From: Chlorobaculum parvum NCIB 8327
Lineage (GTDB): Bacteria; Bacteroidota; Chlorobiia; Chlorobiales; Chlorobiaceae
NCBI RefSeq assembly: GCF_000020505.1
Contig: NC_011027.1
Location: 1,162,001-1,226,000 of the forward strand
DNA: 64,000 nt
Direction: 5' to 3'
Shown here: piece by piece, positions 36,806-40,842 of the stretch
Numbering within the stretch: the stretch's first letter is position 1
Layout of the letters: each line of letters starts with the position of its first letter
Translations under genes and position numbers: made by a program
Notes under the pieces: generated by a model
Database searches by the model: none
What the model was told of the DNA's origin: nothing
Seen by the model: only the letters and a program-made list of their open reading frames with translations

Positions 36806-37164
36806 ACTCGTCTTACTACAAGGCAGAGAGCACAATTCCCAGCCCATCCATTCACCGCTATTTCGTCTCGGCTCTCAACACAATCCTACAATTATGAAGA
36901 ATTCTTGGGAAGTCGCGGCACAGCAGCCCACTTTTCTACATTATCGCAACTTATTTCTTTACTCTGTACACTATTTCATCTCCCCTCTTTTGCCTGATAA
37001 AATTTTCTTCATTCCTCCAATAACCAAACCTATCACTCTATTTTAAAATATCTTAATCTCATTACAAGATTGTGAGAAAACGATAAGAAGCCGCTGTTCT
37101 TTGTGCTTTCTGGCAATTTGGCATGTATTTTGCAATTCTTTCTTATAAAGATTCAGACCTAAGA

Positions 37165-37560
37165 ATGCCATTAACGTCAAGCACGATAAAAGCCATGTAT
37201 AGAATCATCAACGAAGCGGAATACATCGCGGTGACCTTCACCGGATCGGTCAGTTTTTCGGAACTTCTCGACGCCTTCCTGCGCATCACGGCTTTACCCG
37301 GTTTTGGCGAAAAGAGCCGAGTCTGGGTTTTTAAAGGCGATGATGACACAAGCCTTTCGCTCGCAACCATCTCGTCGGTCATGCCAATTATCAAAAAGCT
37401 GAACCAGAAGAGCAGAAAGAACAACAAGGTTGCCATTGTGTTGCAGAATGGCCTTCACAACGCCATTGTTGATCTCTTCGACGGCGACAACGGCCGGGGA
37501 GCTCGCCGTGTCGATCTTTTTGAAGATATGGATAGCGCCGTACAGTGGGTGGCTGCGTGA
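37165..37560 (+). CDS. Small STAS/SpoIIAA-like protein (paralogue of 31968-32390)
   Basis: 131 residues if started at MPLTSSTIKA. A later ATG at 37195 gives 121 residues, and neither has a clear ribosome-binding site. The layout is MYRIINEAEYIAVTFTG, then SRVWVFKGDDD, then a helix SVMPIIKKLNQKS, then VAIVLQNGLHNAIVDLF and a terminal FEDMDSAVQWVAA. That last segment is typical of SpoIIAA-like/STAS-like small proteins. The paralogue at 31968-32390 begins MPL and ends with the same A-x-x-W pattern. The function is unknown. It may be a regulatory or anti-anti-sigma-like domain. Confidence 0.62.
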   Translation: MPLTSSTIKAMYRIINEAEYIAVTFTGSVSFSELLDAFLRITALPGFGEKSRVWVFKGDDDTSLSLATISSVMPIIKKLNQKSRKNNKVAIVLQNGLHNAIVDLFDGDNGRGARRVDLFEDMDSAVQWVAA

Positions 37561-37575
37561 AAAGCATGCCTCTCG

Positions 37576-38424
37576 TTAATTGTTTCGACGCATCCCCCCG
37601 CTATCGAAAAATCGCTCCTTGCGATAGCCGAACCTTGAAGCAACAAGGCGGAGCAGCATCGTAATGACCGGCTGGTAGCGCACGGCACCGTCTCGTTTGT
37701 CGATTCGCCTGATCGCAGGCACAAGCCGTGCGGCTACTGTTTCGGCAGTTTCAGCCATGGCATTGAAAAAGCGCTTATGCTCAATCGTAGCGTCACGAAG
37801 CAGCAGCTCGGTCAGCACCAGCCCCGGGCTCAGTTCATGAACCCCGATGCTTCGATTGCTCGACCGTTCCAACTCTTCAAGCAACAACTCACTCATCAGG
37901 GCCACTGCGCGTTTTGAAGCGCGATGCGCAACCGAAGTCGGCGAAGAACGCAGTCCAGCCGATGAAAAGCCCATGTTAAAGAGATGATAAACCGGCTGTC
38001 CGTCTCCTGCCGATTGCCGGAGCATGGCTTTGAGCACTGCTGCACACACCATCATGCTGCCGGAAAGATTCGTGCGGCAGGTTTCATCGATGTCGTGCGG
38101 ATCGAGCTGCCAGAGCGGACGGCGCATACGGCCTGCAGTTCCGGCATTGTTGATCCAGCGATGGATGATACCGAGCTTTGAAACGGCAAAATCAACAAAT
38201 GTCGTGGCTTGCTCAGGATCGGAGATGTCACAAACCATGCCATAGACTTCACAGCTCGACACGGCCATCTGAAGCTGCTGCAACGCCTCATCGAGCTGCA
38301 CTTTGCGACGGCCGCAAATCACCACCCGGTCACCGGCACGCAGAAACTCCAGAGCCATCGCCAATCCAAGCCCGGCAGTTCCACCTGTAATGACCACTCC
38401 CAATGATTGAGGAACGTTGCTCAA
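37576..38424 (-). CDS. SDR of the chlorophyll b reductase (NYC1/NOL) family
   Basis: 282 residues. NAD(P)-binding VVITGGTAGLGLAMALEF and the INNAGT motif are intact. Beyond general SDR features it follows NYC1/NOL of plants closely: TNLSGSM, LFNMGFSSAG, SIGVHELSPGLVLTELLL, MAETAETVAARLVP, and an ending like RKERFFDSGG where NOL has a WFD(E/D)xG. The catalytic Tyr of YxxxK is His here (AHRASK), while the Ser and Lys remain. NYC1/NOL reduce the C7-formyl group of chlorophyll b. In a green sulfur bacterium a bacteriochlorophyll-related substrate is an inference. The gene is monocistronic and converges on the STAS-like gene. Confidence 0.75.
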   Translation of the reverse strand: MSNVPQSLGVVITGGTAGLGLAMALEFLRAGDRVVICGRRKVQLDEALQQLQMAVSSCEVYGMVCDISDPEQATTFVDFAVSKLGIIHRWINNAGTAGRMRRPLWQLDPHDIDETCRTNLSGSMMVCAAVLKAMLRQSAGDGQPVYHLFNMGFSSAGLRSSPTSVAHRASKRAVALMSELLLEELERSSNRSIGVHELSPGLVLTELLLRDATIEHKRFFNAMAETAETVAARLVPAIRRIDKRDGAVRYQPVITMLLRLVASRFGYRKERFFDSGGMRRNN

Positions 38425-38598: not shown

Positions 38599-40842
38599 AT
38601 GGAGCATTACTACGTTGAACTTCTTCAGGAATTTCAGTTACCGCTGACCAATCCGGTGCTGATTTTTTCGCTCGTGTTGTTCATCATTTTGCTCTCGCCT
38701 ATCGTCCTCAAGCGTTTTAATATTCCGGGAACGGTCGGTCTGATTCTCTCCGGCGTGCTGATTGGCCCCTATGCCCTGAATCTGCTTGAAAAAAGCTCGG
38801 CGGTGGATCTGTTTTCGACCATCGGCCTGCTTTACATCATGTTCATTGCCGGGGCAGAACTTCAGGTCAACGAGCTGAAGCGAAACCGCAATCAAAGCCT
38901 CCTGTTTGGCCTCCTGACCCTCATCGTGCCTATCGTTGCGGTTTATCCGGTGTGCCGCTATTTACTCAATTACAATGTGAGTGCGAGCCTGCTTACGGCC
39001 AGCATGCTTGCGACCCATACGCTGGTAGCTTATCCGATCGTCAACCGCATGGGCATTGCAAAAAACCAGGCCGTGCCCATAACGGTGGCCGGCACGATTC
39101 TGACCGACACCGCTGTCCTGCTGCTGCTTGCAGTCATCATCGGCTACAGTCAGGGCAATCTCACTCAGGAGTTCTGGCTCCACCTCGCCATTTCGCTCAC
39201 GATTTTCACGATGATCGTCTTCATCGTACTGCCGTTTATCGCGCGTTGGTTCTTTACCAAGCTCGAAAACGAGAAGCATGCGCACTACATCTTTGTGCTT
39301 TCGGCCGTCTTTTTCTCGGCCTTCCTCTCCAGAGTCGCCGGGCTTGAACCGATTGTCGGAGCATTCGCTGCGGGCCTGGCGCTCAACCGGCTCATTCCGA
39401 ACTCTTCAGCTCTGATGAACCGCATCGAATTTATCGGCAATTCCCTGTTCATCCCGTTTTTCCTGATCAGCGTGGGAATGCTGGTGGATCTCAGGGTGAT
39501 CCTGAGCGGCCCGATGACCCTCATCATCGCAGCGTTGCTGACGGTGGTGGCGCTTGCAGGAAAATGGCTCCCGGCATGGGTGACCCAGAAGCTGTTCAAG
39601 TTGTCGGCAGCGCAACGGCAGCTGATCTTCGGATTGAGCAGCTCCCGGGCGGCGGCCACCATCGCGATCGTGCTGGTCGGCTATCAGGCTCGTATTCTCG
39701 ACCTGAACATTCTGAACGCTACCATCATTCTGATTCTGGTGACGTGCATCGTAGGCTCAATGGTCACCGAAAAAGCCGCCAAAGAGATCGTCGTCGAGGA
39801 GAGCCAGGCAAGTCCGGTAGATGAGAGTGATGAGGCGAGCTTCTCCGAGCAGATTTTGCTACCGATCGCCGAAGGGTTGCCCTCTGAACGGGTACTTGAA
39901 TTTGCGGTGCTCATCAGGGAGAAACGCTCGGCCAAGCCGCTGATTCTGCTGAGTGTGGTGCCCAACGACCACGAGGCTGAGTTGAACATGAAAAAATCCA
40001 AAAAGGCGCTGGAGCCGATGATCAACTACGCGGCTTCGTTCGATACGAAACTCGATATCGTGGCCACAATCGACTATAACGTCAGCAGCGGCATCAGTCG
40101 TATGGCAAGAGAGCTGCAAGCCGACCTGGTGGTGTATGGCTGGCCACTGCACAGAGGTTTCATTGCCCGGCTGATCAACGATTCGGCAGAAAGCATCGTC
40201 AACTGCACCAGCAAAACCACCATCATCTGCCAAATCACCCAACCGCTCGCTTTGCATCGCCGGTTGGTGGTGATCATTCCGCCGCTGGCCGAAATGGAGA
40301 AAGGCTTCGAGCAGTGGGTCGCGAAAATGACGCTGCTGTCACTGGAGCTGAGCATACCGATGGAACTCCACTGCAACAGCAAAACCCACGCCGCCGTGCT
40401 CGACAGCTTCGACTCGATGCAGTCGGCGCCCAAGTTGCTTTTCGAGCCGATGAAAAATGCACGCGACTGGGAAAACCTGTCCAGACAACGCAAGCGCTTC
40501 AAGGATGACGACATCATCGTGCTGGTCAGCGCCCGAAAGGATTCGCTTTCATACAAACCCTATTTCGACCAGAGCCCGGAACAGCTCGAAAAGCATTTCG
40601 GAGGCATCAGCAAAATCATGATCTACCCGGCCAGCTACGGTGCAGCCAATATTGCTGAAGGGTATGTTGACGTGGTCGTACCGGAACCGATTCGCATCGG
40701 CGCTTCGGCAATTCGGAAAGTCGGAAACGAGCTCGGTCTGTTCCTGAAAAAAAATCAGCAGCAGATCAGAAAAAAGATTCGCGATAAACGTCAAAACCAG
40801 CAAAAAACGCAGGATACCACAGAAAAGGGCGACAAGCCGTAA
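38599..40842 (+). CDS. CPA2-family cation:proton antiporter with C-terminal USP-like domain
   Basis: 747 residues. The N-terminal half (about 15-395) has the 12-13 helices of the Kef/NhaA-like CPA2 transporters, including FNIPGTVGLILSGVLIGP and LEPIVGAFAAGLALNR. The C-terminal half is cytoplasmic: USP-like sequence around 430-555 (VLEFAVLIREKRSAKPLILLS, then ADLVVYGWP) and a second similar domain to about 700. There is no RCK/TrkA-N domain. The transporter exchanges Na+ or K+ for protons. The ion is not determined by sequence. A basic Gln/Lys-rich tail ends the protein. Confidence 0.88.
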   Translation: MEHYYVELLQEFQLPLTNPVLIFSLVLFIILLSPIVLKRFNIPGTVGLILSGVLIGPYALNLLEKSSAVDLFSTIGLLYIMFIAGAELQVNELKRNRNQSLLFGLLTLIVPIVAVYPVCRYLLNYNVSASLLTASMLATHTLVAYPIVNRMGIAKNQAVPITVAGTILTDTAVLLLLAVIIGYSQGNLTQEFWLHLAISLTIFTMIVFIVLPFIARWFFTKLENEKHAHYIFVLSAVFFSAFLSRVAGLEPIVGAFAAGLALNRLIPNSSALMNRIEFIGNSLFIPFFLISVGMLVDLRVILSGPMTLIIAALLTVVALAGKWLPAWVTQKLFKLSAAQRQLIFGLSSSRAAATIAIVLVGYQARILDLNILNATIILILVTCIVGSMVTEKAAKEIVVEESQASPVDESDEASFSEQILLPIAEGLPSERVLEFAVLIREKRSAKPLILLSVVPNDHEAELNMKKSKKALEPMINYAASFDTKLDIVATIDYNVSSGISRMARELQADLVVYGWPLHRGFIARLINDSAESIVNCTSKTTIICQITQPLALHRRLVVIIPPLAEMEKGFEQWVAKMTLLSLELSIPMELHCNSKTHAAVLDSFDSMQSAPKLLFEPMKNARDWENLSRQRKRFKDDDIIVLVSARKDSLSYKPYFDQSPEQLEKHFGGISKIMIYPASYGAANIAEGYVDVVVPEPIRIGASAIRKVGNELGLFLKKNQQQIRKKIRDKRQNQQKTQDTTEKGDKP

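Follow-up and report, generated by a model that had tools for sequence, protein, structure and literature searches.

The window analysed here is a stretch of 64,000 nucleotides from Chlorobaculum parvum NCIB 8327 (NC_011027.1, positions 1,162,001 to 1,226,000), whose genome consists of one contig of 2,289,249 bp. An intact open reading frame of 282 amino acids lies at 37576-38424 on the minus strand of the window, with a TTG start and the sequence AAGG a few bases upstream. It encodes a classical short-chain dehydrogenase/reductase (SDR) with His in the place of the catalytic Tyr. Its features, with residues counted from the TTG start, are as follows.

37576..38424, minus strand: His-type, NYC1/NOL-like classical SDR, 282 aa (open reading frame, Pfam adh_short, AlphaFold2)
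38365..38388, minus strand: nucleotide-binding motif TGGTAGLG, residues 13-20 (Gly18 invariant and the others near-invariant in 66 orthologues)
38140..38151, minus strand: NNAG motif, residues 92-95 (invariant, 65/65)
38068..38070, minus strand: Asn119 in TNLSGS, the tetrad Asn as assigned by alignment (invariant, 65/65)
37963..37965, minus strand: Ser154, 13 residues before the His, where the catalytic Ser of classical SDRs is located (Ser in 59 and Thr in 5, n = 64)
37924..37926, minus strand: His167, codon CAT, replacing the catalytic Tyr of YxxxK (His in 65/65; aligned on the Tyr of 1vl8)
37912..37914, minus strand: Lys171, the catalytic Lys of YxxxK (invariant, 65/65)
37594..37830, minus strand: NYC1/NOL-like C-terminal part, SPGLVLTELLL ... 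RFFDSGG, residues 199-277 (BLASTP against provisional NYC1/NOL sequences)

The gene stands alone as a monocistronic unit. On one side lies a divergent gene for an antiporter of the Na+/H+ exchanger type (38599-40842), on the other a small convergent gene (37123-37560) that matched nothing in Pfam. The neighbours are unrelated, and they differ between Chlorobaculum and Chlorobium. No pigment genes adjoining the His-type gene were seen, no operon or defence context was found there, and a scan of the locus for promoters and terminators gave nothing above chance.

The product scored 113 bits for Pfam adh_short, for which the cut-off is 26.6. The AlphaFold2 model (pLDDT 82, pTM 0.85) exhibited a Rossmann fold, and its best matches in the fold comparison were SDR enzymes, such as HSD17B13 and the actinorhodin ketoreductase. 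The TGxxxGxG and NNAG motifs of the SDR fold are both present, and an SPG motif occupies residues 199-201. For the Asn-Ser-Tyr-Lys tetrad, Asn and Lys are invariant and Ser is kept as Ser or Thr, whereas Tyr is His in all 65 copies. The protein is an SDR in fold and kinship, although its tetrad is incomplete.

SDRs make up one of the largest superfamilies of enzymes, and no catalytic residue of theirs is better known than the Tyr of YxxxK. The window protein reads HRASK where YxxxK is expected, and in the profile alignment with the solved SDR 1vl8, His167 falls on the catalytic Tyr, in agreement with the original prediction. Orthologues were gathered from the order of the source genome (98 genomes) and from a named genome collection. 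They numbered 66, of which 65 cover the His site and 64 cover position 154; the nearest named relative, in a Chlorobaculum parvum metagenome-assembled genome (MAG), is 87% identical. His was observed in every Chlorobiaceae copy that reaches the site, even though pairwise identity falls to 42%, and Tyr was restored in none of the close homologues. Both His codons occur (CAC in 39 and CAT in 26), with no return to the Tyr codons TAT and TAC, which lie one base away. The dN/dS ratio between close orthologue pairs was about 0.13-0.30, in the range of purifying selection. Because the His is universal, is written with both codons and accompanies these low ratios, the change from Tyr to His is an old, maintained and lineage-wide feature and no error.

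His takes the place of Tyr outside this family too: a second, unrelated SDR of the same genome, the FabG-like L002 (G000:C1:1402902-1403483), reads HSTAK there. L002 differs from the window protein in that it has an ordinary FabG-like sequence, with SNAS for NNAG, and the two are not closely related. On natural Tyr-to-His SDRs, the literature searched contained nothing relevant.

Within the searches made, the His-type gene was found only in phototrophic Chlorobiaceae. It was absent from 20 of the 86 Chlorobiaceae genomes, some of which are complete or at least 99% complete; one complete genome without it is, we assume, that of Chlorobium luteolum DSM 273. A further genome in which the gene was not found is presumably that of Chloroherpeton thalassium, and one of the carriers is taken to be C. 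tepidum TLS. The orthologues formed a single clade (support 100/100), and since this clade divides into Chlorobaculum and Chlorobium parts as expected, the gene has descended vertically.

The plant proteins NYC1 and NOL reduce the C7-formyl group of chlorophyll b (PMC8621299). For the window protein, the original prediction had claimed a likeness to these enzymes along the whole length, and this held for most of it. The plant sequences used both for BLASTP and for the tree were provisional ones instead of database entries, and we take them to be those of NYC1 and NOL; invented sequences would hardly align as these did. In BLASTP with these provisional sequences, residues 10-277 were 36% identical to NYC1 and residues 10-241 were 39% identical to NOL, and SPGLVLTELLL, ETVA..LVP and RFFD/RWFD matched in the C-terminal part. 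In the tree, in which the two provisional plant sequences were the only references for chlorophyll b reductases (CBRs), the His clade grouped with NYC1/NOL at 97/92, and it was not placed outside the NYC1/NOL clade. The alternative tree, in which the provisional plant sequences join the Tyr-type and Phe-type families described below, cost 7.7 log-likelihood units and is disfavoured (AU p 0.036).

The window family and the provisional plant sequences have in common the classical SDR core, WINNAG, SPG(M/L)V(L/T)T(E/D)LLL and the C-terminal part. Conversely, the window family reads HxxSK in all orthologues in place of the catalytic YxxxK of NYC1/NOL and has MGF(S/T) where the plants have the MDGAGS motif, and the window protein carries no plastid or membrane extension. 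These comparisons suggest that the His-type SDRs are probably kin to NYC1/NOL, which we treat as a lead and not as proof. In the search for cyanobacterial or algal NYC1/NOL, tblastn of plasmids gave remote SDRs only, and the viral scan gave nothing. In the literature searched, the plant NYC1/NOL motif strings did not occur, and nothing relevant on a green sulfur bacterial chlorophyll b reductase was present.

Two other families of NOL-like SDRs were observed in the group. The Tyr-type family (MEGLGSDG...YGTTK; L062-L072, L079) belongs to the same wider SDR group and bacterial family as the window protein, to which it is about 30-36% identical, but its Tyr is intact, it forms a separate clade, and it is paired with an HCAR/BciB-like protein that the source genome lacks. 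This co-occurrence with an FrhB-family protein was seen in 43 of 43 genomes (L063, L105:7522-9616 and 42 other Chlorobiaceae). The listed coordinates place the two genes no more than 400 bp from each other in 34 genomes and some 5 kb from each other in 4, while the remaining 5 genomes have them on separate contigs. The best solved relative of the partner is plant HCAR (8.9e-75), and the partner could be BciB, the 8-vinyl reductase, which is related to HCAR. The two proteins possibly form a bacterial parallel of the CBR-HCAR couple of plants; alternatively, the SDR may be linked to BciB. A Tyr-type SDR (AGSGTDKG...YGSTK) was also observed at L125:9904-10746 on the plus strand (G000), about 5.5 kb from a gene for a B12-binding radical SAM protein (L125:2906-4366). 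Homologues of the radical SAM gene are present in almost all genomes of the order, and relatives of this SDR extend to further families of the same order (L077, L078).

The Phe-type family (L073-L075, L081) likewise falls in the same wider group as the window protein with its catalytic Tyr replaced, but the replacement is Phe rather than His, the clade is separate, and the gene lies within a brown-pigment gene cluster. The C. limnaeum copy, at L102:10328-11104 on the minus strand, is next to a cruB-like gene and separated from bciD by about 3 kb. In L074 and L081, a second HCAR/BciB-like gene precedes the Phe-type gene.

The explanation that we favour, with a probability of roughly 0.45 and on the evidence of sequence, is that the His-type proteins are an NAD(P)H-binding sister lineage of NYC1/NOL, with a His selected in place of Tyr, that carries out an altered and dispensable reaction on a group other than C7-formyl. 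The catalytic Tyr would have changed to His in the ancestor of Chlorobaculum and Chlorobium and would then have been kept by selection. Lys171 and the nicotinamide ribose would still hold the cofactor, and because the other tetrad residues are retained, His167 may act as proton donor or acceptor in the stead of Tyr. As substrate we would expect a carbonyl or secondary alcohol that is bulky and distinct from the C7-formyl. Examples would be a bacteriochlorophyll(ide) reacting at its 3-acetyl or 3-hydroxyethyl group, or a breakdown product. The step would be one of dispensable turnover or salvage rather than of required pigment synthesis.

The function of the gene is most likely non-essential, because 20 of the 86 Chlorobiaceae genomes do without it while the genome taken to be that of C. 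tepidum has it. The same is suggested by the fact that the last unidentified pigment-synthesis enzyme of the green sulfur bacteria has already been reported (PMC6166724). If pigments are involved at all, turnover, salvage or adjustment would be the most likely role; the link to pigments comes from kinship to the provisional plant sequences. That the clade as a whole represents a His-dependent SDR acting on a non-C7-formyl bacteriochlorophyll group, such as 3-acetyl or 3-hydroxyethyl, in a new step of pigment remodelling or turnover, is in our estimate decidedly unlikely. Tyr-to-His mutants of Drosophila alcohol dehydrogenase, which is an SDR, are reportedly inactive, which counts against the favoured explanation. 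So do the monocistronic setting of the gene and its neighbours, which include no pigment genes and vary between the two genera.

The main rival is a non-catalytic role, in which turnover is abolished and the protein serves as a sensor, carrier or scaffold that binds NAD(P)H and possibly also a pigment or a partner. The acid-base Tyr is gone from every orthologue, SDRs mutated at this Tyr are mostly dead, and loss of the Tyr recurs, since a relative with Phe exists in the wider group. However, the other tetrad residues, Lys above all, are invariant, although it is not obvious why a protein that only binds would require them, and the replacement residue is ionisable and never any other. We consider a non-catalytic role rather unlikely.

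An active SDR with a non-pigment substrate, such as a lipid, quinone or sugar carbonyl, to which the kinship with NYC1/NOL would be merely ancestral, is unlikely. It would fit the unrelated neighbours, with no adjoining pigment genes, and the ease with which SDR substrates change, as well as the inclusion in the wider NOL-like group of SDRs from Bacillota MAGs (L050, L051), where phototrophy is not known. On the other hand, the gene was confined to phototrophic Chlorobiaceae in the searches made, and in the tree its product lies closest to chlorophyll enzymes of plastids, represented by the provisional sequences.

Reduction of a C7-formyl bacteriochlorophyll, as originally predicted, fared worse. 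In the NYC1/NOL reaction, with which plants begin to break down chlorophyll b, the C7-formyl group is converted to 7-hydroxymethyl. C. parvum is a producer of BChl d, and its genome lacks bciD, so that no C7-formyl pigment is expected in it. BciD is the known green sulfur bacterial enzyme that makes the C7-formyl group (PMC3613366). In C. limnaeum DSM 1677, its gene was identified as L102:14121-15329, the stretch enclosed by published primers, and bciD was found in 9 of the 98 genomes of the order. Another gene near it, L102:16706-18139 on the plus strand, was rejected as bciD; it encodes a B12-binding radical SAM protein, close homologues of which occur in almost all genomes of the order. It is an extra copy, 67% identical to this near-universal protein, and perhaps a paralogue of the BchQ/BchR-type methyltransferases.

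The C7-formyl reading fails for almost every carrier, because 62 of the 66 carriers of the His gene are without bciD and 5 of the 9 bciD genomes are without the His gene; the association between the two genes was negative (Fisher p 0.03). In addition, the SDR linked to bciD is another one, the Phe type (5/8 vs 4/78, p 1.8e-4). The bciD distribution thus rejects C7-formyl reduction as the main reading. A reductase for C7-formyl bacteriochlorophyll e or f, acting for example on scavenged pigment, would accord with the kinship to the provisional NYC1/NOL sequences and with the presence of the His gene in the BChl e producer C. limnaeum, but it is highly improbable. If any NOL-like SDR treats C7-formyl pigments, the Tyr-type and Phe-type proteins are better candidates than the window gene.

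Finally, the chance that a local sequencing error or a decaying gene accounts for the His is negligible, as nothing speaks for it except the unusual residue and the TTG start, and it is rejected by dN/dS well under 1 and by the presence of His in all 65 copies, which stem from separate assemblies.

Overall, a lineage in which His is fixed while the rest of the site is kept offers a natural test of the role of Tyr in SDRs. C. tepidum is a transformable model, and because the gene is present in the genome that we take to be its own, a direct knock-out would be feasible. Should the kinship with NYC1/NOL hold for verified sequences, the plant enzymes would have close bacterial relatives in organisms that have no chlorophyll b and mostly no C7-formyl pigment of any kind, which would bear on the origin of the plant enzymes.
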